Source: Adhaeribacter pallidiroseus
GTDB taxonomy: Bacteria > Bacteroidota > Bacteroidia > Cytophagales > Hymenobacteraceae
NCBI RefSeq assembly: GCF_003340495.1
Contig: NZ_QASA01000001.1
Span: forward strand, 4,898,001-4,962,000
DNA: 64,000 nt
Reading direction: 5' to 3'
Shown piece by piece: positions 971 to 15,489 of this stretch. The first letter of the stretch is position 1. Each line of letters starts with the position of its first letter. A program made the position numbers and the translations under genes. Under the pieces are notes generated by a model. That model was not told the origin of the DNA. It saw only the letters and a list, made by a program, of their open reading frames with translations, and ran no database searches.

Positions 971-2245
971 TTAAATAATAAAGTGATAAAACTCTGGCCG
1001 GTTGTTAATGTACTCGCAATTAAAGTTACGTTCCGTCATTCGCTGCACTAAAGCATCAAAATCTGACCGGCTTTTTAATTCGATACCAACCAACGCCGGC
1101 CCTTTTTCCCGGCTGTTTTTCTTGGTATACTCAAAGTGGGTTATATCGTCGGTAGGCCCTAAAATATAATTTACAAATTCCTTTAATGCGCCGGCACGTT
1201 GCGGAAAATTAACGATAAAATAATGCTTCAGGCCCTCATAGAGCAAGGAGCGTTCCTTTATTTCTTCCGTACGGGTAATATCATTATTGCCGCCACTTAC
1301 AACGCACACAACCGTCTTACCAACAATTTGGTCTTGTACAAAGTCTAAAGCAGCAATACTTAGCGCCCCGGCCGGTTCTACCACCATGGCTTCTTCGTTG
1401 TAAAGCTGCAGAATAGTAGAGCAAACTTTCCCTTCGGGTACCGTAATTACTTCATCCAGGTTTTCCTGGCAAATCTGTAAAGTTAATTCACCTACTGATT
1501 TTACCGCCGCCCCATCCACAAATTTATCAATATGTTCCAGCGTTATTTTTCGGCCGGCTTCAATAGATTTTTTCATGGCTGGCGCCCCTTCGGGTTCAAT
1601 ACCAATTAAAGTAGTTTCGGGGCTTTCCTCTTTAAAATAACTCGATACGCCTGCGGCCAGGCCTCCACCACCAATCGGCATTAGCAAAAAATCGATTGGC
1701 TTAGTAGCAGCTTCCAGTATTTCCAAGCCTACGGTGCCTTGGCCCGCAATAACTTGTAAATCATCAAAAGGGTGAATAAAGACAGTTTTATTTTGATTGG
1801 AGTAGGCTAACGCTTGTAAGTACGAATCATCGAAGGTGTCGCCGGTAAGTACTATTTCTACGTGCTCTTTCCCGAATAATTGTACTTGCTTTAATTTTTG
1901 CTGCGGGGTAGTTACGGGCATAAAAATATGGCCTTTTATCCCGAGTTTATGGCAGGAATAAGCTACCCCTTGCGCATGATTGCCTGCGCTGGCGCATACA
2001 ATACCGTTTACTAATTGTTCCGGCGTTAAACTGCTGATTTTATTATAAGCACCCCGCAGTTTGTACGACCGTACTACCTGTAAATCTTCCCGTTTCAGGT
2101 AAATGTTGGCCCGATACTTTTCTGACAGGTTGATACTACGCAGTAATGGGGTATGATTTACTACTTGCTGCAAACGGGCAGCAGCTACTTTTATATCTTC
2201 GGCTCGCACCAGCGTTGCCTTTTCCACCGCAACTTCTTCCGGCAT
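971..2245 (-). CDS. ilvA: Threonine ammonia-lyase (threonine dehydratase), biosynthetic
   Basis: Converts threonine to 2-oxobutanoate, the first committed step to isoleucine. The pyridoxal-phosphate lysine is K62 in SYKLRGAYNK, and the phosphate-binding loop GGGGLAAG is at residues 192-199. Residues 340-424 form a C-terminal ACT-like regulatory domain (LLYEGLKHYFIVNFPQRAGA), so feedback control by isoleucine is likely. At 424 residues it matches the short, single-regulatory-domain type rather than the roughly 510-residue enterobacterial enzyme. It is the last gene of the ilv operon, about 150 bases after ilvC, and is followed by a terminator. The catabolic form is unlikely because of the ACT-like domain and the operon context. 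Confidence 0.95.
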   Translation of the reverse strand: MPEEVAVEKATLVRAEDIKVAAARLQQVVNHTPLLRSINLSEKYRANIYLKREDLQVVRSYKLRGAYNKISSLTPEQLVNGIVCASAGNHAQGVAYSCHKLGIKGHIFMPVTTPQQKLKQVQLFGKEHVEIVLTGDTFDDSYLQALAYSNQNKTVFIHPFDDLQVIAGQGTVGLEILEAATKPIDFLLMPIGGGGLAAGVSSYFKEESPETTLIGIEPEGAPAMKKSIEAGRKITLEHIDKFVDGAAVKSVGELTLQICQENLDEVITVPEGKVCSTILQLYNEEAMVVEPAGALSIAALDFVQDQIVGKTVVCVVSGGNNDITRTEEIKERSLLYEGLKHYFIVNFPQRAGALKEFVNYILGPTDDITHFEYTKKNSREKGPALVGIELKSRSDFDALVQRMTERNFNCEYINNRPEFYHFII

Positions 2246-2271
2246 AATTTTACTTCGTTGTTTGTTGTTGG

Positions 2272-2384
2272 TTACTCGTTGTTCGTCAAATTCCAGATGC
2301 GAATTTTACAACCTGCGTAATCTTTATTTAATGGTAGATTTAAGCAAAAATTCTTCTCTGAAATGGGGATTGAACAACGAGTAA
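2272..2384. repeat. Inverted word repeat in the ilvC-ilvA spacer
   Basis: TTACTCGTTGTTC (2272-2284) and its exact complement GAACAACGAGTAA (2372-2384) lie near the two ends of the spacer and could fold the whole spacer into a hairpin. It is one of several such spacers in this window (see findings). Confidence 0.6.
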
Positions 2385-2395
2385 AACAACAATTA

Positions 2396-3442
2396 TTAAT
2401 TATTCTGAGGACGTAGTTTACGTACTTGAGCGCCGGCTTGCCACATTTCGGAATCGCGTAGTTCTTTTAGTTCAGCATCTAGTTTTTCCCGGTAATCGGG
2501 CTGGCTGTTGGTATCAATGGAGCGTTGGGCTTCGTTACCGGTAGCTACGCTTTCGTATAATTCTTCAAATACAGGTGCTACCGCATCCCGGAATTTATCT
2601 TTCCAATCTAAAGCACCCCGCTGGGCAGTAGTAGAACAGTTGGCATACATCCAATCCATACCATTTTCGGCTACCAGTAAAATTAAACTTTCGGTTAATT
2701 CTTCTACTGTTTCGTTGAACGATTCGGAAGGCGAATGCCCTTTTTTACGTAGCAAATTATATTGCGCTTCCAGAATACCCGCTAAGGCCCCCATTAAAGT
2801 ACCGCGTTCGCCGGTTAAATCAGAAAATACTTCTTTTTTGAAATCAGTTTCGAACAAATAACCCGAACCCACCCCAATACCCAAAGCAACTACTTTTTCG
2901 CGGGCTTTACCAGAAGCATCTTGGAAGATAGCGAAGCTGGAATTTAAACCTTTGCCTTCCAGGAACATGCGGCGCAAACTGGTACCCGATCCTTTTGGAG
3001 CCACCAGAATAACATCTACATCCGTAGGAGGAACAATGCCGGTACGTTCTTTAAAAGTTACGCCAAAGCCATGCGAGAAATAGAGCGTTTTGCCTGGTTT
3101 AAGAGCATTTTTAACCATCGGCCAAGCGGCAATCTGGCCGGCATCTGAAAGTAAGAATTGCAAAATAGTACCGCGCTCACAGGCTTCTTCCAGTTCAAAT
3201 AAAGTTTCACCGGGTACCCAGCCGTCGTTTACAGCTTTTTCCCAAGTTTTTGAATCTTTCCGCTGACCAACAATCACGTTAAAGCCATTGTCGCGCAGGT
3301 TTAATGCTTGGCCAGGACCTTGCACGCCGTAACCGAGTACCGCAATTGTTTCATTTTTTAAAACTTCTCTTGCTTGCTCCAAAGGAAACTCTTCCCGGGT
3401 TACAACACTTTCTTCAGTTCCGCCAAAATTGATTTTTGCCAT
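2396..3442 (-). CDS. ilvC: Ketol-acid reductoisomerase (NADP+)
   Basis: Performs the alkyl migration and NADPH-dependent reduction of acetolactate or acetohydroxybutyrate. The Rossmann motif GYGVQG is at residues 37-42 after a 30-residue N-terminal extension, followed by GQRKDSKTW, the region that sets cofactor preference. VAPKGSGTSLRR and FSDLTGERG carry conserved catalytic and metal-binding residues. At 348 residues it belongs to the short class I enzymes. It lies between ilvN and ilvA, with spacers of about 150 bases holding inverted word repeats on both sides. Confidence 0.96.
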   Translation of the reverse strand: MAKINFGGTEESVVTREEFPLEQAREVLKNETIAVLGYGVQGPGQALNLRDNGFNVIVGQRKDSKTWEKAVNDGWVPGETLFELEEACERGTILQFLLSDAGQIAAWPMVKNALKPGKTLYFSHGFGVTFKERTGIVPPTDVDVILVAPKGSGTSLRRMFLEGKGLNSSFAIFQDASGKAREKVVALGIGVGSGYLFETDFKKEVFSDLTGERGTLMGALAGILEAQYNLLRKKGHSPSESFNETVEELTESLILLVAENGMDWMYANCSTTAQRGALDWKDKFRDAVAPVFEELYESVATGNEAQRSIDTNSQPDYREKLDAELKELRDSEMWQAGAQVRKLRPQNN

Positions 3443-3499
3443 TGTTTTTTAAATAGTTTATAGATTATTATAATAGGTTTCTTTTCTGGATGTTAGACG

Positions 3500-3591
3500 T
3501 TAGATATTCGATATTCGCGTTTGATCAAAGGGTATACTGCTACGCATTAAAAGAGAATTGAACAATCTAGAATTGAATACCGAACATCTAA
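3500..3591. repeat. Inverted word repeat in the ilvN-ilvC spacer
   Basis: TTAGATATTCGATATTC (3500-3516) pairs with GAATACCGAACATCTAA (3575-3591) at 15 of 17 positions. The left arm sits in a run of similar words (GGATGTTAGACGTTAGAT). The same word family occurs again behind thrA at 15490. Confidence 0.55.
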
Positions 3592-3592
3592 A

Positions 3593-4156
3593 TCACAAAT
3601 AAGCTTCTTCCTGTTCGCGCAGGTAAGTGCTTAAATCTTTCATGTGTTTGGTGATGGCTACCCGGCCGCTACGCACAAATTGCAGAATACCAAAAGGAGA
3701 TAGTTTTTCAAATAACTCGCGGGTTTCTTCCATGTGCCCGGTTTTCTCGATAATAATGTACTGCGGATCTACCGTTAAAATGCGGGCATGGCTATCACGC
3801 ACAATTTGTTCTACCTGGCTGCCATTTATCATGGAACTCATTGGTATTTTATACATCGCAATTTCCTGGAAAACGGTTTCTTCTTCCGGATAAAACGAAG
3901 CCCGCAAAACGTCGACCTGTTTAGCTATTTGTTTTACTAGTTTTTCGACCTGAGCGTAGGTAGTTTTAATGATAATGGTATAGCGGTATACATTTTTTAC
4001 TTCCGACTCTGAGACGGTGATACTCTCGATATTGATGTGTCGACGGGTAAAAATAATGGTAATGCGGTTGAGCAGACCAACTTTGTTTTCGGTAAATGCA
4101 AATATGGTAAAGGTTTTTTCCTCGCCTGAATCTATTTGATAATCTTCAATCGCCAT
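3593..4156 (-). CDS. ilvN: Acetolactate synthase small (regulatory) subunit
   Basis: Binds the IlvB catalytic subunit and confers valine feedback inhibition. The N-terminal ACT domain spans about residues 15-90 (TIFAFTENKVGLLNRITIIF, then INIESITVSESEV), followed by the C-terminal small-subunit domain with SGRVAITKH near residues 163-171. At 187 residues it is within the usual 160-190 range. It follows ilvB after about 140 bases, the normal order for these two partners. Confidence 0.93.
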   Translation of the reverse strand: MAIEDYQIDSGEEKTFTIFAFTENKVGLLNRITIIFTRRHINIESITVSESEVKNVYRYTIIIKTTYAQVEKLVKQIAKQVDVLRASFYPEEETVFQEIAMYKIPMSSMINGSQVEQIVRDSHARILTVDPQYIIIEKTGHMEETRELFEKLSPFGILQFVRSGRVAITKHMKDLSTYLREQEEAYL

Positions 4157-4213
4157 TGCTATTTATAAATACTTAATGCTGTATTAATTTATTTTACGCC
4201 CGTTTTTCTTACT

Positions 4214-4284
4214 CTAAAACCTCCTCTACTGGCAAAAATTTAAAAAATTGTATGGGCACTCCTTCTCCGGTTGGTGGAGGGCCA
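4214..4284. repeat. REP-like element between ilvB and ilvN
   Basis: The spacer holds GGGCACTCCTTCTCCGG followed by TTGGTGGAGGGCC (4254-4282), a degenerate palindrome related to the cleaner copy at 18627-18667 (GGCACCCCTTCTC...GAGAAGGGGCC). A shorter CCTCCTCTACTGG precedes it at 4220. Confidence 0.45.
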
Positions 4285-4296
4285 TAGAACAGGATA

Positions 4297-6042
4297 TTAC
4301 GATAGCCGAATGTTAGCCACAGAATCGCCGGCAGGTACCATCGGGAATACGTTATCTTCTTTCTCTACCACTACCTCTAGTACATAGGGACCTTCGTGAT
4401 CCAGCATGGCCTGAATAGACTCTTGCAGACTTTCGCGCTCCGTTACTTTATTGGCAGCAATACCGTAAGCTTTAGCAATGCCTACAAAATCGGGGTTTAC
4501 CATTTCGGTGAAAGAATAGCGTTTTTGATGAAAAAGTTGCTGCCACTGACGGACCATCCCTAAGAAATTATTATTTAAAATAACCACTTTCACCCCGATC
4601 TGGTACTGAAAAATGCAACCGAGTTCCTGTATAGTCATCTGGAAACCACCATCGCCGATTACCGCAATTACTTGCCGGTCGGGAGCACCAACTTTAGCGC
4701 CCATAGCAGCAGGCAAACAAAAGCCCATCGTTCCTAAACCACCGGATGTTATGTTGCTTCGGCGGGTATCTTTGAAATTATAATAACGCATGGCGGTCAT
4801 TTGGTGCTGGCCTACATCCGTAACCACTACGGCCTTGCCCTCAGACAATTCGGAGATAAGGTGCATGGCTTCGGCCATTTTCAGCTTTCCTTCTGCCGGA
4901 TACATCTCGGGCGCCATTACTTTTTCAAATTCAATCTTAGCGCAATCATTAAACTTCTGAACCCAATCGGTGTGCTGGTTTTTATTAATTAAAGGCAATA
5001 AGGCTTGCAATGCTTCTTTGGCATCTGCATTTACGGCCACATCTACCCGGATATTTTTATTTATCTCCGCTGGGTCAATTTCTATGTGAACAATTTTGGC
5101 CTGCCGGCCATAACGTTTTAAATCACCCGTTACCCGATCATCGAAACGCATACCAATAGCAATCATTACATCGCACTCGTTCGTTAATAAATTAGGACCG
5201 TAATTACCGTGCATGCCCAACATACCAACATTTAACGGGTGATCGGTAGGCAAACCGGCTAAACCCAAAATTGTCCAGGCAGCAGGAATGCCCGCTTTTT
5301 CGATAAAAGCCTTTAAATCTTCTTGGGCATTAGATAATAAAACACCTTGGCCCCATAATACATAAGGTTTCCGGGCATTATTAATTAACTCGGCAGCTTC
5401 TGCTATAGCTTTTCTGTTTAGTTTTGGGACCGGATAATAGCTCGAAATGCGCTTACATTTCTTGTAGGTATATTCAAACTTGGCATTCTGCGCATCCTTG
5501 GTAATATCAATTAAAACCGGACCAGGCCGCCCAGAAGTAGCAATATAAAAAGCCCGAGCGATAGCATCCGGAATTTCTTCGGCACGAGTTACTTGCAGGT
5601 TCCACTTGGTTACCGGCATGGTTACTCCCAAAACATCCGTTTCCTGAAAAGCATCGGTACCCAGTAAATGCGAAAACACCTGGCCGGTTATACATACTAA
5701 AGGCGTAGAATCAATCTGCGCATCGGCAATACCCGTAATTAAATTGGTAGCTCCCGGCCCGGAAGTAGCAAAACAAACGCCCGGTTTACCGGTAATGCGG
5801 GCATAACCCTGAGCAGCATGCGCTCCGCCTTGTTCGTGGCGGACCAGGTAATGATTTAACTGGTCTTTGAAATCATAAAGCGCATCGTAAATGGGCATGA
5901 TAGCTCCACCCGGATACCCAAAAATAGTATCGACGCCTTCTTCCAGTAAAGCAAGTAGGAGACCTTGGGCGCCTGTTACTATCTTTTTTTCTGTTACTGC
6001 TTGCTCTCCCTTTTCGGTAATTTCTGCTACTGCTGCGTTCAT
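4297..6042 (-). CDS. ilvB: Acetolactate synthase large (catalytic) subunit
   Basis: Thiamine-diphosphate enzyme that condenses pyruvate with pyruvate or 2-oxobutanoate. The PYR-domain catalytic glutamate is E70 in RHEQGGAHAAQGYAR, after FGYPGGAIMPIYDAL. The C-terminal ThDP/Mg site is the GDGGF...NNNFLG motif near residues 462-500. The middle domain lies between these. At 581 residues it has the normal family length. An N-terminal extension of about 20 residues (MNAAVAEITEKGEQ) precedes the core. It is the third gene of the ilv operon, with its regulatory subunit directly downstream. Confidence 0.96.
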   Translation of the reverse strand: MNAAVAEITEKGEQAVTEKKIVTGAQGLLLALLEEGVDTIFGYPGGAIMPIYDALYDFKDQLNHYLVRHEQGGAHAAQGYARITGKPGVCFATSGPGATNLITGIADAQIDSTPLVCITGQVFSHLLGTDAFQETDVLGVTMPVTKWNLQVTRAEEIPDAIARAFYIATSGRPGPVLIDITKDAQNAKFEYTYKKCKRISSYYPVPKLNRKAIAEAAELINNARKPYVLWGQGVLLSNAQEDLKAFIEKAGIPAAWTILGLAGLPTDHPLNVGMLGMHGNYGPNLLTNECDVMIAIGMRFDDRVTGDLKRYGRQAKIVHIEIDPAEINKNIRVDVAVNADAKEALQALLPLINKNQHTDWVQKFNDCAKIEFEKVMAPEMYPAEGKLKMAEAMHLISELSEGKAVVVTDVGQHQMTAMRYYNFKDTRRSNITSGGLGTMGFCLPAAMGAKVGAPDRQVIAVIGDGGFQMTIQELGCIFQYQIGVKVVILNNNFLGMVRQWQQLFHQKRYSFTEMVNPDFVGIAKAYGIAANKVTERESLQESIQAMLDHEGPYVLEVVVEKEDNVFPMVPAGDSVANIRLS

Positions 6043-6182
6043 AACATTTTGAATTTATTCTACTCCTAGCCCGTTTGCGGAATGGAGAATCTTAAAATAT
6101 TTTTATTTTTAAATTAACTATAAAGCACCTTCCAAATATCTAACTAATTATAATCCAGTAGAATTCATCCGTTACCACATTT

Positions 6183-6761
6183 TTATTTTTTTACCGCTAT
6201 AACAATACCGGTAGCCCAAATCTGTTTTGTTAAAACTATATCATTTCGCTGATCCAGATCCTGAATGAGTTTGATTGCTTTTTGATCATGACCATCCGGC
6301 CAATTAGGTTGAGGCAACATATCATCTAAAATATAAAGCCCGCCGGTATTCAGCATTTGCAGTGCTTCTTCCAGTAAAAAGTATTTTCCAGGCCAAGTAT
6401 CGGCAAAAATATAATCAAACTTCTGATCTTTATTTTGCTCCATCCACTGCTCCCCATTTGAGCAAATAAGCTGCAACCGCTCATCGTGGCCTAGGAAATC
6501 TTGAGCAATTTTTAAAAAATCTGCACTATTATCTACAGATATTAAGGTGGAGTCTTGGTCCATTCCGTCCAGAATCCAGGAGGTTGAAAGACCCGTTCCG
6601 GTTCCGAGTTCCAGAAACTTAGCAGCTGGTTTAGTAGCGGCCAAGGTACGCAGTAAAGAACAAGTCAGTACCTCCGAAGCCATGGTAAAACCCGCAGCAA
6701 TTGTAGCTTCGTTTATTGCCAAGTAAGTGCTAGGCAAAGGCTGATTTATTTCGTCTGACAT
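6183..6761 (-). CDS. Class I SAM-dependent methyltransferase inside the ilv operon
   Basis: A 192-residue protein with a Rossmann-type SAM-binding motif at about residues 50-58 (FLELGTGTGLST), an acidic strand end SVDNSADF and the later motif FDYIFADTWPGKY. This resembles small O-methyltransferases of the COG4122 type. It lies between ilvD and ilvB on the same strand with spacers of about 140 bases, so co-transcription is likely. It has no known role in branched-chain amino acid synthesis, and its substrate cannot be read from the sequence. Confidence 0.75.
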   Translation of the reverse strand: MSDEINQPLPSTYLAINEATIAAGFTMASEVLTCSLLRTLAATKPAAKFLELGTGTGLSTSWILDGMDQDSTLISVDNSADFLKIAQDFLGHDERLQLICSNGEQWMEQNKDQKFDYIFADTWPGKYFLLEEALQMLNTGGLYILDDMLPQPNWPDGHDQKAIKLIQDLDQRNDIVLTKQIWATGIVIAVKK

Positions 6762-6905
6762 GAGTACTGGCTTTAACCTTATTTTTTAAATTTATTTTTT
6801 CTGATTCTTGATTTATTAAAGGTAAACACCTTAAGAAGATGCGATTTTTAAATTTTTATAAATTTAATTACCTTCATTATAAAAGCTTATTTCCTTTATC
6901 ATTAA

Positions 6906-8609
6906 TTATCGATCGGTAACACAACCTTCGGAGGCCGATGAAACCGATTTGGCGTATTTATACAAGATACCCGAATTTTTGCGCAATGGCCGGGGCTGCC
7001 AGGCTGCCCGGCGTTTCGCAATTTCTTCTTCGCTCAAATCTACTTCCAGACGATTGCTCACGGCATCAATGGTAATTTTATCACCATTCTGGAGTAAACC
7101 AATCATACCGCCCACGTGTGCTTCCGGCGTAATGTGCCCTACCACAAAACCGTGGGTACCACCCGAGAAACGTCCATCGGTAATTAAGGCTACCGATTTG
7201 CCTAAACCCGCTCCCATAATTAAAGAAGTAGGCTTCAGCATTTCTGGCATACCAGGTCCTCCTTGCGGCCCTTCGTACCGGATAACCAACACATCACCTT
7301 CTTTTACCTGGCCTGATAAAATACCATCGTTGGCTTCAAATTCGCCGTCGAATACTACCGCTGTACCGGTGAAAACTTCCCCCTCTTTACCGGTGATTTT
7401 AGCCACCGAACCTTGCTCGGCTAAATTGCCATAAAGAATGCGGATGTGACCCGTTTCTTTTATAGGCTGATCTAAGGGCATAATTACATCTTGTCCTTCG
7501 GTTAAGTCTGGTACATTGGCTAAGTTCTCGGCAACGGTTTTACCTGTTACGGTTAAACAATCGCCGTGTAATAAACCAGCATTCAATAACATTTTCATTA
7601 CCGCCGGAATACCACCAATTTTGTGTACGGCTTCCATGTGGTATTTGCCACTGGGCTTCATATCGGCCAGTAACGGAGTTTTGTCGCTGATGCGTTGAAA
7701 ATCATCAATGGTTAAGTCTATCCCCGCGGTTTTGGCAATGGCTAATAAGTGCAACACCGCATTAGTAGAGCCACCTAAAATTGTAAGCACCACCATGGCA
7801 TTTTCAAACGCCTTTTTGGTCATGATATCCAAAGGCTTAATATCTTTAGCCAGGAGCTCCCGGATAGCAATACCCGCCTGCACCGATTCTTCTGCTTTTT
7901 CCGGACTGATTGCCGGGTTAGAAGAATTATAGGGCAAAGTCATACCCATGGCTTCTGCTGCCGAGGCCATAGTATTAGCCGTATACATACCACCACAAGC
8001 ACCAGCACCCGGACAAGCATGTTCTATTACTCCTTTAAAATCTTCCGGCGAAATAGTACCAGCGTATTTTTCACCCAACGCTTCGAATGCCGAAACAATA
8101 TCTAATTTTTTACCCGTGAATTTACCGGCCGCATCGCAGTAGTTACCCGGGGCAATTGTACCACCATACACCATAATAGCGGGGCGGTTTAGGCGAGCAA
8201 AGCTTATAAGTGCCCCGGGCATATTCTTGTCGCAACCTACCACCGCTACTACACCATCGTAGCTTTGGGCATTTACCACTGTTTCGATGGAATCCGCAAT
8301 AAGATCGCGCGACGGTAAAGAATAACGCATGCCGGGTGTTCCCATAGAAATACCATCACTTACCCCAATAGTATGGAACATTAAACCAAGTACATCCTCT
8401 GTAGTATTTACCCCATTTTTAACCAGTTTCGCTAAATCATTCAGGTGCATGTTACACGGGTTACCATCGAATCCGGTGCTAACCACTCCTATCTGGGCTT
8501 TTTTCAGGTCGTCGTTGCTTAAGCCAATAGCGTGCAACATAGCCTGTGCCGCCGGATTGGTTTCTTCCTGGGTAACGAGGTAACTGTAACGGTTTAATGT
8601 AGTACTCAT
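6906..8609 (-). CDS. ilvD: Dihydroxy-acid dehydratase
   Basis: Dehydrates dihydroxyisovalerate and dihydroxymethylvalerate to the 2-oxo acids. The likely iron-sulfur ligands are C52 (NPCNMH), C126 (GCDKNMPG) and C199 ([11 protein letters not shown]); K128 next to C126 is the usual carbamylated metal ligand. The C-terminal part has the expected GGPGMPEML and [10 protein letters not shown] motifs. Length is normal at 567 residues. It is the first structural gene of the ilv operon, 135 bases after the attenuator terminator, so its transcription should depend on the leader peptide described below. Confidence 0.96.
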
Positions 8610-8744
8610 TTTAAATAGTTATAAAGTTAAAATCTAAAAGTTTAGAAGATTATTTTGACGAAAGAATCTTCTTCTTAAAGCAATTAATTTTAAAAATCAG
8701 AATTAATTACTTCCGCTTGCAGCCTTATTCTCAACATTATAGTT

Positions 8745-8780
8745 AAAAAAAAGCGCCATTCTTGTTAAAGGAATGGCGCT
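8745..8780 (-). terminator. Attenuator terminator in the ilv leader
   Basis: Read on the minus strand, AGCGCCATTC and GAATGGCGCT form a perfect 10-bp stem with a 9-nt loop, directly followed by eight Ts. It lies between the leader peptide stop codon and ilvD, where an attenuator terminator would be expected. Confidence 0.9.
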
Positions 8781-8813
8781 GCTTCTATTTTATCAAAGTA
8801 AATTACACCATCC
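8771..8813 (-). promoter_or_regulatory. Possible antiterminator pairing in the ilv leader
   Basis: GGAUGGUGU at the 3' end of the leader ORF (8805-8813) can pair over all nine bases, three of them G-U, with GCGCCAUUC (8771-8779), the 5' arm of the terminator. The two structures exclude each other. A ribosome stalled at the Ile/Val codons leaves this segment free; one that reaches the stop codon covers it. This is inferred from base pairing only. Confidence 0.65.
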
Positions 8814-8877
8814 ATCGTTTAGCGTCGATAATGACGCTAAAAATAATTCGGTTCAGGACAGATGAAGTAAACAACAT
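8803..8877 (-). CDS. ilv operon leader peptide (attenuator)
   Basis: A 24-codon ORF, too short for normal gene calling, starts MLFTSSVLNR. It contains nine Ile, Leu or Val residues, including Ile-Ile at 11-12 and Val-Ile-Ile at 15-17. A perfect 9-bp hairpin (TTTAGCGTC / GACGCTAAA, 8818-8841) overlaps the Val-Ile-Ile codons. An intrinsic terminator follows the stop codon by about 22 bases, and ilvD lies beyond. Such a codon cluster at this position is the hallmark of ribosome-mediated attenuation: charged tRNAs let the ribosome finish and the terminator form, while starvation stalls it and transcription continues. Confidence 0.85.
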   Translation of the reverse strand: MLFTSSVLNRIIFSVIIDAKRWMV

Positions 8878-8912
8878 ATAATTTTCTCAGTATTATTTTG
8901 CTTAAAGTGTTG

Positions 8913-8943
8913 CTAATGTAAAGAACAAAAATTAAAAACCAAA
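8913..8943 (-). promoter_or_regulatory. Candidate ilv operon promoter (Bacteroidota type)
   Basis: On the minus strand, TTTG (8940-8943), a 19-base spacer, then TACATTAG (8913-8920). This matches the Bacteroidota consensus TTTG / TAnnTTTG with one mismatch in the -7 element. Transcription would begin near 8906, about 30 bases before the leader ORF. Confidence 0.55.
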
Positions 8944-9348
8944 AATTACGATTTCAATTTTTGTTCAAATATTTTAAATCTGCTTCTTAATTTATATTAA
9001 GGAAAGCCCGTATTCTTAATAATCTTTATAACAAAAGGCTTTTACAAATATGTTTTTTATTAAATTTCAAAATATTCAGATTCTTTTTGCAAAATTATAA
9101 AATCTACTTTCTCCCTTACTTAAAGTATAAATTCATGCATTAATTTACACTCATTTATTGCTTGAATTTTAAAATTCTCCATTTCCCACTCCTTTTTTAA
9201 GCATTGTTACTAATTTTTCAGATGAAAAATAAAACCTTTTAACACATAACCTTGAAATACATATACATAGCCAGCTTATCTGAAATAAATAGCATCAGTG
9301 AAGTAATGCTAAAGAACGGCTGTAATTACCAGAAAGCCTTTAATTCAC
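8944..9348. other. A/T-rich spacer upstream of the ilv promoter
   Basis: About 400 bases without a convincing ORF, between the ilv promoter and the large hairpin at 9349. The DNA is strongly A/T-rich with no clear repeats. It may hold upstream control sites, but none could be recognised. Confidence 0.5.
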
Positions 9349-11849: not shown

Positions 11850-12510
11850 AATAGATACTGTAAAAAGCTTTTATGTTATAGTACATTTAAATTAAGATCA
11901 ACTTCAAAATCAGTGGAATATCGGGCATTCTCCTTCACAGAACTAATTACACGCTAATAGATAGACTATTTACAATATTTAAATTCATTTATAGGAGAGG
12001 CTCTTAGCAAATAAATTGCCAAACTTATATATATTTTAATAATTTTTAGAATATAACTTATATCTCTTAGAACTAATTGCACTAAATTCGGCCCTATTAC
12101 TAAGTTCTTCAACCCTTACGATGCATACTCTCGATTTTACCTGTAACCATAAAATAAGGTAACTCAGCAGAAATACTCTACTTTAGAAAACAGCCAGAAT
12201 AGTTGATGGAGAATGTACTGCTGACAAGAATTTGCTATACACTTAAAAATGCTTATTTAGCTTTAATCATCTCGTTTAAAAAATTTACATTTTGATTATG
12301 AGAAACTTAACTTAAATACCTTAATTAAACCACTCAGCAAATTACGAGTTAGTAATATGGAATCTATATAGCACATAAATACCATAGCAATTTTTAAATA
12401 TTTCCAAACAAAATTACCATACATTACCCATATAAAAAAATTATCAATCAATTATTGAAAATATTATAACTTTAAATCAAATTTTTAAAATATTTACATT
12501 CAGCAGCTAG
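11850..12510. other. A/T-rich spacer upstream of the acyltransferase operon
   Basis: About 660 bases of strongly A/T-rich DNA with no convincing ORF, repeat or hairpin. It must contain the acyltransferase operon promoter, but no clear TTTG/TAnnTTTG pair was found. Confidence 0.5.
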
Positions 12511-12726
12511 TTACTTAAAGCAGAATAAATCTATAGCTTTGCAAGAAAAAGGTATAATAGAATTTGCAGGATTTGTAGCTGCTGTAAAATCTGCTTTACC
12601 CAAGTCTCTTTTTAAATGGGAGTTCTTGACAAAAACAAATATATAATCTTGAGCAAGATGAGGAGTATAAGTAGATTGACTTTGACAAACAGATTGTAAA
12701 TTACAAGCTATACTTGTTAGGAACAA
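12511..12726 (-). CDS. Doubtful small ORF or gene remnant
   Basis: A 71-codon open frame inside a 1.2-kb A/T-rich spacer. Its start region (MFLTSIACNLQSVC) could pass for a short signal or lipoprotein-like segment. The rest (YTPHLAQDYIFVFVKNSHL and on) has ordinary composition but no recognisable family. It may be an orphan gene, a degraded fragment or chance. Nothing around it supports a function. Confidence 0.25.
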   Translation of the reverse strand: MFLTSIACNLQSVCQSQSTYTPHLAQDYIFVFVKNSHLKRDLGKADFTAATNPANSIIPFSCKAIDLFCFK

Positions 12727-13044
12727 AAGCCTACATCATTAATTAAAAAGAGAAATAAACAAGGAATCAATAACCTATTATATAGAATAAACTAACGTAT
12801 AGTAGCCTGTTCCTAAATTAAAGCCTTCATTAAAAATTTGCCATTTTAGACAAAAATCAATAAAATAAGTAAAACGCTGAAAATTTTCTTTGCTTTGTTT
12901 TGAAATTTTAAAAATTATAGAGTTTCTTTCGCCTCGCAAAAATCAAAGAGCATTAATTCCATAAAATCACCTTACCTTATGGCGCTTTAGCAGTTACATA
13001 ACGCTGTTGAAACCAACAATCCATTAGCATATTTTTATTATCGC
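12727..13044. other. Spacer upstream of thrA
   Basis: About 320 bases that must carry the thr operon promoter. A weak candidate is TTTG at 12894-12897, 20 bases, then TAGAGTTT at 12918. No leader peptide rich in Thr or Ile codons and no terminator hairpin were found, unlike in front of ilvD. Confidence 0.4.
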
Positions 13045-15489
13045 ATGATAGTTTTAAAGTTTGGCGGGTCTTCGGTGAGTACGCCGGAGAACATCTTAAA
13101 AGTACTGGCTGTAGTTAAATCGCACGCGTCAGTAAATGAATTGGCTGTAGTAGTATCGGCGTTTGGTGGTGTTACCGATAGCTTGATTAATACCAGCCGG
13201 TTAGCCGAAAAAGGCGATCTGGCTTATAAAGAAGAACTTAAAAAATTAGAAGAACGCCACTTAACGGCCGTTAAAGAGTTAATTCACGCCACGCGCCAAA
13301 GTGCGATTATTGCCAACGTAAAGTTTTTACTGAATGAACTGGAAGATATCTTACAAGGAGTTTACTTGGTAAAAGAATTAAGTTTAAAAACCCTGGACTT
13401 TGTTTCCAGTTTTGGCGAACGCTTATCTTCGTATTTAATAGCCGAGGCTTTTAAGGAAAACGGAGTACCGGCTTTTGCCGCCGATTACCGCCAACTAATT
13501 ATTACGGACCGTACTTATGGTAATGCTAAAGTAAAGTTTGAGGTAACGAATGCCCGCGTTAAGCAGTATTTAACTAATACCAACGAGTTGCCCGTTATTC
13601 CAGGTTTTGTAGGCACAACCGAACACGGCGAAACAACTACTTTAGGCCGGGGCGGCTCCGATTATACCGCAGCTATTGTAGCAGCGGCGCTCGACTCGGC
13701 GAGCCTGGAAATCTGGACCGATGTAAACGGCATGATGACCGCCGATCCGCGCCGCGTAAAAAATGCCATTCCGATTGAAGAGTTGTCGTATGAAGAAGCC
13801 TTGGAGCTATCTTACTTTGGAGCGAAAATCATTTATCCGCCTACCATTCAGCCGGCGTTAAGCAAGAAAATTCCGATTCGGTTAAAAAACACGTTTGAAC
13901 CGGCGGCACCTGGTACTTTAATTACGCAAAACCCGCGACAGAGCGAAGCGCCCGTAAAAGGCATTGCTTCCATCGAGAACATCGCTTTGCTTACCATTTC
14001 GGGCAGCGGTATGGTGGGTGCCAGTGGTATAGCCATGCGTTTTTTTGGCGCTTTGGCCAACCAAAAGGTAAACGTTATTTTAATTACCCAAGCATCCTCA
14101 GAACACTCGATTACCGTAGGTATTAATCAACGCGATGCAACGCGGGCCCAACTAGCCATAGAACAGGAATTTCAGTTAGAGATACAGGCGGGCATTGTGG
14201 ATAAAGTAAATATTCAAAACGATTTAGCTATTCTGGCTTTAGTAGGTTTGAATATGAAAAACACCCCAGGTATTGCCGGAAAATTATTTAGTTCGTTGGG
14301 CCGCAATGGTATTAATATAATTGCTATAGCCCAGGGCACTTCCGAGCTCAATATTTCTTGCGTTATTCAAAAGAAAGATGAAGAAAAAGCTTTAAATACC
14401 ATTCACGAAGCTTTCTTCCTTTCCGACATAAAAACCCTGCATTTATTTGTGGTAGGGACCGGTACGGTGGGCGCTACTTTATTAAAACAAATTAAAAATC
14501 AAGCGTTTAATTTATACAAAACTTTAGCTATTGATATTAAACTGATTGGCCTTACCAACAGTAAGCAGGCGGTATTTAATGAAAAGGGTATTCCGTGGGC
14601 ACAATGGGAAGAAATATTTGAGCAAAAAGGGCAAGAGTCGAATATTGAGATTTTTGTGGAGCGGATGGCTGAGTTAAATTTACCGAATGCCATATTTGTA
14701 GATTGCACCGCTAATCCGGATGTAGCGGCTACCTATAAGTTTTTACTGGAACGCAGCATTTCGATTGTAACACCTAATAAAATAGCGGCCTCCAGTAATT
14801 ACCACACCTACAAAGAATTAAAAACCTTAGCTGCTAAACGCGGAGTAAAATATTTATACGAAACTAACGTAGGTGCCGGTCTACCCATTATTAGTACCCT
14901 AACAGATTTAATCCGGAGCGGCGATACCGTTCATAAAATAGAAGGTATTTTCTCGGGCACCATGAATTATTTGTTTAACACCGTAAGTGCCGATAAAAAA
15001 CTGAGTACCGTAGTACAGGAAGCCATGGATTTAGGTTACGCCGAACCCGATCCGCGTATTGACTTGAGTGGCAAAGATGTAGCCCGCAAAATTATGATTC
15101 TGGCTCGCGAAACCGGTGATAATCTGGAACTGGAAGATGTGCATATAAAACCCTTCTTACCAGCTAACTGTTTACAAGACTCCCCCATGGACCAATTCTG
15201 GCAGAACCTGCGTTCGTACGAAGATACGTTTGAAGGGCAACGCGCCGAAGTGGAAAGCCAAGGTAAAGGTTACCGTTTAGTTGCTTCGTGGGAAGACGGC
15301 AAAGCCCGCATTGAATTACGGGAGGTAGATAAAAGCCATCCGTTCTACTCGGTTTCCGGTTCTGATAATATTATTTTGTTTACTACCGAGCGCTACAAAA
15401 CGCAGCCGCTGATTGTAAAAGGTTCCGGGGCGGGTGCCGAAGTAACCGCTGCCGGCGTATTTGCCGATATTATCCGGATTGCGAATTAG
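13045..15489 (+). CDS. thrA: Bifunctional aspartate kinase / homoserine dehydrogenase
   Basis: Carries out the first and third steps of the threonine branch: phosphorylation of aspartate and reduction of aspartate semialdehyde to homoserine. Residues 1-290 are the aspartokinase domain, starting with KFGGSSV at 5-11 and including TLGRGGSDYTAA. Residues of about 310-460 form two ACT domains, which give feedback control by threonine. From about residue 470 the homoserine dehydrogenase domain begins with the Rossmann motif VVGTGTVGATLL, with TPNKIAA and GIFSGTMNYLF further on. At 814 residues it equals the enterobacterial ThrA layout. It is first in a thrA-thrB-(NTF2-like)-thrC cluster. Confidence 0.96.
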   Translation: MIVLKFGGSSVSTPENILKVLAVVKSHASVNELAVVVSAFGGVTDSLINTSRLAEKGDLAYKEELKKLEERHLTAVKELIHATRQSAIIANVKFLLNELEDILQGVYLVKELSLKTLDFVSSFGERLSSYLIAEAFKENGVPAFAADYRQLIITDRTYGNAKVKFEVTNARVKQYLTNTNELPVIPGFVGTTEHGETTTLGRGGSDYTAAIVAAALDSASLEIWTDVNGMMTADPRRVKNAIPIEELSYEEALELSYFGAKIIYPPTIQPALSKKIPIRLKNTFEPAAPGTLITQNPRQSEAPVKGIASIENIALLTISGSGMVGASGIAMRFFGALANQKVNVILITQASSEHSITVGINQRDATRAQLAIEQEFQLEIQAGIVDKVNIQNDLAILALVGLNMKNTPGIAGKLFSSLGRNGINIIAIAQGTSELNISCVIQKKDEEKALNTIHEAFFLSDIKTLHLFVVGTGTVGATLLKQIKNQAFNLYKTLAIDIKLIGLTNSKQAVFNEKGIPWAQWEEIFEQKGQESNIEIFVERMAELNLPNAIFVDCTANPDVAATYKFLLERSISIVTPNKIAASSNYHTYKELKTLAAKRGVKYLYETNVGAGLPIISTLTDLIRSGDTVHKIEGIFSGTMNYLFNTVSADKKLSTVVQEAMDLGYAEPDPRIDLSGKDVARKIMILARETGDNLELEDVHIKPFLPANCLQDSPMDQFWQNLRSYEDTFEGQRAEVESQGKGYRLVASWEDGKARIELREVDKSHPFYSVSGSDNIILFTTERYKTQPLIVKGSGAGAEVTAAGVFADIIRIAN

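Follow-up and report, generated by a model that had tools for sequence, protein, structure and literature searches.

A predicted ribosome-mediated transcription attenuator in front of ilvD in Adhaeribacter pallidiroseus and related leaders in the Bacteroidota

The ilvD locus and its leader

The DNA analysed here (the window) is a stretch of 64,000 nucleotides from Adhaeribacter pallidiroseus. Its minus strand carries the genes from ilvD to ilvA (971..8609), which presumably form one operon. Cut-offs are those of NCBIfam.

6906..8609, minus strand: ilvD, dihydroxy-acid dehydratase, the first structural gene (TIGR00110, above cut-off)
6761-6183, minus strand: methyltransferase-like gene (not above cut-off)
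6042-4297, minus strand: ilvB (above cut-off)
4156-3593, minus strand: ilvN (above cut-off)
3442-2396, minus strand: ilvC (above cut-off)
2245-971, minus strand: ilvA (above cut-off)

The methyltransferase-like gene between ilvD and ilvB belongs to no clear family, its NCBIfam scores being far under the cut-off. Upstream of ilvD, the following elements were read on the same strand.

8913..8943, minus strand: promoter-like motif, TTTG (8943-8940), a 19-nt spacer and TACATTAG (8920-8913)
8803..8877, minus strand: leader ORF of 24 codons, MLFTSSVLNRIIFSVIIDAKRWMV, stop codon UAA
8803..8870, minus strand: sequestering stem (1:2) of the minimum-energy folds, 8870-8867/8806-8803 and 8865-8857/8816-8808
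8818..8841, minus strand: hairpin of 9 bp, UUUAGCGUC-AUUAUC-GACGCUAAA, arms 8841-8833/8826-8818
8805..8813, minus strand: antiterminator segment (region 2) GGAUGGUGU, formed by the last leader codons and the first base of the stop codon
8752..8780, minus strand: intrinsic terminator stem of 10 bp, arms 8780-8771/8761-8752
8745..8752, minus strand: U8 tract of the terminator, read from the sequence

The terminator ends at 8745, and ilvD starts (8609) 135 nt further on. The promoter that an earlier note on this DNA had proposed corresponds to a promoter-like motif at 8943-8913, and none of 100 shuffles scored equally high. The TTTG/TACATTAG motif is shared by four of the eight genus members (the window element L001, L083, L084 and L088); in the other four, the identical scan found no promoter motif above chance. 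The same scan over 68 leader units gave results near chance (10 at p<=0.05, median p 0.645), and a promoter motif is predicted only for the window element and its three near relatives.

The 24-codon ORF with nine Ile, Leu and Val codons described in the same note is indeed read at 8877-8803, and its residues comprise 4 I, 3 V and 2 L. The Ile/Val content of this leader alone is borderline (p 0.06), and the Ile/Val statistics without the terminator criterion are weak in the genus as well (p 0.010-0.065 for the eight members). A scan of the window for further leaders found none, and it should be noted that its residue rule would miss the ilv leader too. Inspection by eye of the region before the aspartokinase/homoserine dehydrogenase gene (window 12500-13045) found no Thr/Ile-rich leader with a terminator.

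Helices of the leader and their conservation in the genus

The hairpin claimed to lie over the Val-Ile-Ile codons was found at 8841-8833/8826-8818, where it covers the leader codons Phe13 to Lys20 and carries the two Ile codons in its loop. It is probably the pause hairpin. The segment GGAUGGUGU (8813-8805) pairs with GCGCCAUUC of the terminator 5' arm along its full length, as had been stated, with three of the nine pairs being G-U. The perfect 10-bp terminator with eight Us was likewise found as described, the first U of the tract (8752-8745) doubling as the last base of the 3' arm. The fold of the leader RNA gave a z of -4.71 against dinucleotide shuffles, none of 200 being equally stable.

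The element is present upstream of ilvD in all eight genus genomes analysed, with exactly one match to the hairpin pattern (<=3 mismatches) per genome. The leader ORF has 24 codons and starts with ATG in every case; its stop codon is UAA in five genomes and UGA in three, and the distance from the stop codon to the GCGCC of the terminator is always 23 nt. Across all genome pairs, which are not independent of each other, 94 of 136 single-base codon differences in the leader frame are synonymous (69%, against 22% expected). In the other two frames 22% are synonymous, and these frames contain stops in all eight genomes. Twelve of the last 15 leader residues are invariant, and the first half differs between two clades. 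The leader-plus-terminator unit, under thresholds chosen after a first look at the data, was detected in 8/8 genus regions, on none of the eight antisense strands and in none of the 20 shuffles of each region.

Across the eight genomes, 97.2% of cells are paired in the 9-bp hairpin, 95.8% in the pairing of region 2 with the terminator 5' arm and 100% in the terminator stem. The comparison with relatives, which the earlier note had named as a check on its reading, showed the leader ORF and the stems to be kept throughout the genus. The compensatory changes that it had suggested looking for in the three stems are absent there: in these eight genomes no base pair of the hairpin, the antiterminator or the terminator is changed on both sides. 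Inside the genus, the three helices thus show conservation but no covariation.

A leader that folds strongly and ends in a terminator would also fit a metabolite-binding riboswitch or a protein-binding leader that runs the terminator, with the peptide of the ORF being incidental. However, what is conserved in the genus is mostly the ORF together with the helices listed above, substitutions in the frame are of the coding type, and Ile/Val codons persist across the phylum although the terminators and leaders differ. We therefore regard such an element as highly improbable. A known riboswitch, T-box or other Rfam family was rejected, since no covariance model reached the gathering score in the whole window; the 12 permissive Rfam matches in 8600-9000 were far under it (best E 0.028).

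Leader-plus-terminator units in the phylum

The survey covered 1.2 kb (less at contig ends) upstream of ilvD in 168 regions, namely 8 from the genus, 22 from the rest of its family, 59 (of 60 retrieved) from the order outside that family and 79 (of 80 retrieved) from named records. The best 30 loci from 127 matching family genomes, eight of them of the genus, made up the family sample. For the order, 60 places were hand-picked for genus spread among the matches listed from 210 matching genomes, and the named records were the best 80 of at least 582 named relatives. These samples are non-random and biased to ilvD genes that resemble the one of the window. Three loci were excluded before counting: L026 and L169 had too little upstream DNA, and L002 is a paralogue from the same genome with 36% identity.

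The named records are Bacteroidota by title, with one exception. The record L081, titled Thalassovita sp., contains an ilvD 68% identical to that of the window together with an Ile/Val leader and a terminator. Thalassovita is an alphaproteobacterial name, and L081 is perhaps a mislabelled metagenome bin.

A unit was defined as an ATG ORF of 10-36 codons rich in Ile/Val (score 1.3) followed by a terminator (score 18) 10-45 nt past the stop codon; these thresholds were chosen after an initial inspection of the data and were applied identically in the shuffle, antisense and other-residue controls. Units were found in 74 of the 168 regions (genus 8/8, other family genera 5/22, order 27/59, named records 34/79), compared with one of 168 antisense strands and none in 20 rounds of shuffles. 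A looser finder scored 37 of the 59 order regions at p<=0.05, against 27 with the final one. Ile/Val leaders with terminators stand before ilvD, or before a gene directly preceding it, in many genomes from the order; they also occur in records of Flavobacteriaceae, Saprospiraceae and Cyclobacteriaceae. The remaining 94 regions, including 17 of the 22 from other family genera, had no unit inside 1.2 kb. In some of them the start of the operon may lie further upstream. Where the leader is located about 1.1 kb away, ilvE intervenes in both cases checked (L112 and L004).

The dependence on the residues was examined in several ways. Ten residue sets without Ile gave 0-4 regions, against 74 for Ile/Val, and the sets with Ile gave 44 (Ile+Leu), 53 (Ile+Asn) and 39 (Ile+Lys). 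When ORF-terminator pairs were searched without the residue criterion (ORF of 12-30 codons, a stronger terminator, gap 17-38), 77 pairs at 69 loci were found on the sense strand and one on the antisense strand; the sense ORFs contain 27% Ile, 15% Val and 8% Leu. Among 56 non-redundant units, which had themselves been chosen for Ile/Val, Ile is enriched 3.4-fold, Val 3.2-fold and Leu 0.9-fold, and arithmetic from the same table puts Leu at about 1.4-fold among the remaining residues alone. The leaders are thus dominated by Ile and Val, and Leu may play a weak part.

For each of the 56 units, we asked how well region 2 pairs with its own terminator arm in comparison with the other 55. The own arm had a median rank of 0.10 and fell into the best tenth in 28 of the 56 units (KS p 1.5e-14 against uniform ranks), and against shuffled leader ends 30 of the 56 reached p<=0.05. 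The longest sequence word common to region 2 and the terminator 3' arm was longer for the own arm than for the others in 41/56 (p 1.9e-6). As the units are related by descent, these p-values overstate the independent evidence. The window unit ranked at 0.036, with p 0.06 against shuffles, and five units (L013, L145, L003, L050 and the upstream unit of L080) fell into the worst third. The sequences suggest that, across lineages, a leader end tends to find its best pairing partner in the terminator arm of its own unit. Region 2 started between -26 and +7 from the end of the stop codon (search range from -30). The sequestering 1:2 pairing barely exceeded that of shuffled leaders, with 5/56 units at p<=0.05 and 10/56 at p<=0.1; in the equilibrium fold region 2 was paired upstream in 47/56, a figure that comes without a null.

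Conserved residues could also mean that the short ORF encodes a functional trans-acting peptide, for example a membrane peptide, and that the terminator merely separates it from ilvD. The invariant residues of the genus agree with this, as does the order of leader residues across the phylum, which is alike beyond the leaders' own shuffles (z above 2 in 45/56), and the accessible part of one report offers a precedent in peTrpL of Sinorhizobium (PMC7298713). However, the invariant residues are encoded where the hairpin and region 2 lie, so that a constraint on the RNA can explain them, the first half of the leader varies between the two clades, and the similarity in order may only mirror the clustering of Ile and Val near the leader end. 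A trans-acting peptide seems to us very improbable.

Nine loci carry two Ile/Val units in series, each with its own terminator: four of Aquimarina (L010, L017, L027 and L067), one of Bizionia (L016), one of Sinomicrobium (L080), and L031, L111 and L128. In the Bizionia and Sinomicrobium tandems, the upstream terminator is of the GCCTTCC type and the downstream one of the GCCTGTATC type, and several relatives with a single unit carry either type (e.g., L018 and L047 versus L054 and L065).

Leaders were also seen at other operons of the genus. A Phe/Tyr-rich leader (e.g., MKRITNAFFFYYYFFSTSPGS) with a terminator lies upstream of pheA in seven of the eight genomes (L174 1342-1479, L176-L182). The trpE gene is preceded in all eight by a leader of the MKQLYTAGWWHLLEC type with two adjacent Trp codons (L173 2253-2131, minus strand; L183-L189), a terminator being found in seven; in L173, a TATATTTG motif lies just upstream. 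Before hisG, a His-rich ORF (...HFHHYHH...) was recognised by eye in six of the eight genomes (L172 1149-1256; L192-L198), with a terminator in one. In these three cases the script took the best-scoring ORF for the expected residue, without a shuffle control; the recurrence of the leader sequences between genomes nevertheless indicates that they are not chance picks. Counting ilvD, four operons have leaders whose residues fit the pathway, as ribosome-mediated attenuation predicts.

The proposed switch and related systems

The leader was folded in different states for the eight genus genomes. With a ribosome placed at the Val/Ile codons and the terminator 3' arm unmade, region 2 and the terminator 5' arm paired in 8/8, and with the ribosome placed at the stop codon the terminator formed in 8/8. 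These folds agree with the claim that stalling favours the antiterminator and completed translation the terminator, the former holding before the 3' arm is made. In the complete RNA without translation, region 2 was paired with upstream leader RNA and the terminator was formed, again in 8/8, with differing registers. Once the 3' arm had been made, the terminator was the minimum-energy fold in all eight even with a stalled ribosome; therefore, the switch must be kinetic.

The stability of the terminator, the best fold even when region 2 is free, would equally be seen in a plain constitutive terminator that reduces ilv expression or yields a small RNA, with no control by the ribosome. But the antiterminator pairing is kept in the genus and tends to match the own terminator across lineages, and we hold a plain terminator to be extremely improbable.

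We conclude that the element is very probably a ribosome-mediated transcription attenuator, which would tie the expression of ilvD-ilvB-ilvN-ilvC-ilvA to charged tRNA-Ile and tRNA-Val. This mechanism, which the earlier note had drawn from known ilv and thr attenuators of Proteobacteria, is the best-supported one in view of the conservation in the genus, the leaders across the phylum and the fit of region 2 to its own arm. What is found between the promoter-like motif and ilvD corresponds to this class of element: a short ORF with codons for the amino acids of the operon, predicted to be a leader and showing coding-type substitution; a predicted intrinsic terminator between this ORF and the first structural gene; and a mutually exclusive antiterminator that uses the terminator 5' arm and overlaps the leader end.

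The leader ORF, the alternative helices and their conservation come from sequence and folding; the steps of the polymerase and the ribosome, as we infer them, would be the following. RNA polymerase would pause at the hairpin over the leader codons as a ribosome starts the leader. A ribosome that freely reaches the stop codon would cover region 2, so that the terminator forms and transcription ends near 8745. A ribosome waiting at the Ile/Val codons would open the hairpin and the 1:2 stem, and the freed region 2 could capture the terminator 5' arm before the 3' arm is made, letting the polymerase read into ilvD. If the leader is not translated, upstream leader RNA would hold region 2 and the terminator would form.

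On a wider scale, we think it fairly likely that ribosome-mediated attenuation is a standard control of amino-acid operons in the Bacteroidota: of ilv, where the leaders are dominated by Ile and Val and several lineages have two attenuators in series, and, within the genus, also of pheA, trpE and probably hisG. If true, transcription and translation are timed closely enough in this phylum for a ribosome to steer the polymerase. Bacteroidota rarely use Shine-Dalgarno initiation. Since ribosome-mediated attenuation needs the ribosome and the polymerase in step, attenuators of this phylum make the coupling directly testable; conserved ones could also serve as natural reporters for uncharged tRNAs. 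Annotations would be gained for small leader ORFs, which gene finders tend to miss, and the tandem arrangement might give a steeper response or a backup.

The switch is of a textbook kind. The literature searched did not show its recurrence in the phylum, leaders dominated by Ile and Val or tandem units; no paper on Bacteroidota ilv attenuators or on tandem ilv attenuators was found in these open-access searches. The leader of the E. coli K-12 ilvXGMEDA operon is an attenuator. Like the window element, it has an Ile/Val-rich ORF (IlvL) followed by a GC-rich hairpin and a U tract before the ilv genes; it differs in its length of 32 residues with 4 Leu, in its terminator and in its first gene. 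Although 26 of the 56 Bacteroidota leaders score higher in alignment with IlvL than shuffles of themselves do (p<=0.05), the shared clustering of I and V may explain these alignments, which are suggestive only with regard to homology.

The comparisons that follow draw on the accessible portions of the papers cited. Closest in phylum are cases from Flavobacterium psychrophilum, whose 2021 transcriptome (PMC9723704) describes amino-acid operons headed by structured 5' regions, with "strong clues" that leader peptides attenuate them. The main text of this paper never mentions "ilvD", and no survey of the phylum was found there. A map of Bacteroides thetaiotaomicron (PMC7366714) mentions short ORFs that resemble leader peptides. 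Korolev et al. 2016 (PMC4833913) cite a comparative study of attenuation from 2010 (PubMed 20198868), which may list Bacteroidota cases. For the Actinobacteria, similar ilvB leaders have been described, and in Streptomyces coelicolor the replacement of regulatory codons had no effect (PMC1262725); therefore, such leaders need testing.

The Corynebacterium glutamicum ilvBNC attenuator (PMC11857589) resembles the window element in having a leader ORF with Ile/Val/Leu codons and a terminator and antiterminator. Its leader has 15 codons, and its terminator, antiterminator and anti-antiterminator were tested by mutation. It differs in phylum and first gene, its terminator and antiterminator hairpins overlap, and its leader begins one nucleotide past the transcription start. 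The tandem loci have a likeness in Salmonella mgtCBR (PMC3641672), where two leader-ORF attenuators stand in series in one leader. Those two units sense different signals, whereas at the ilv tandem loci both leaders are rich in Ile and Val.
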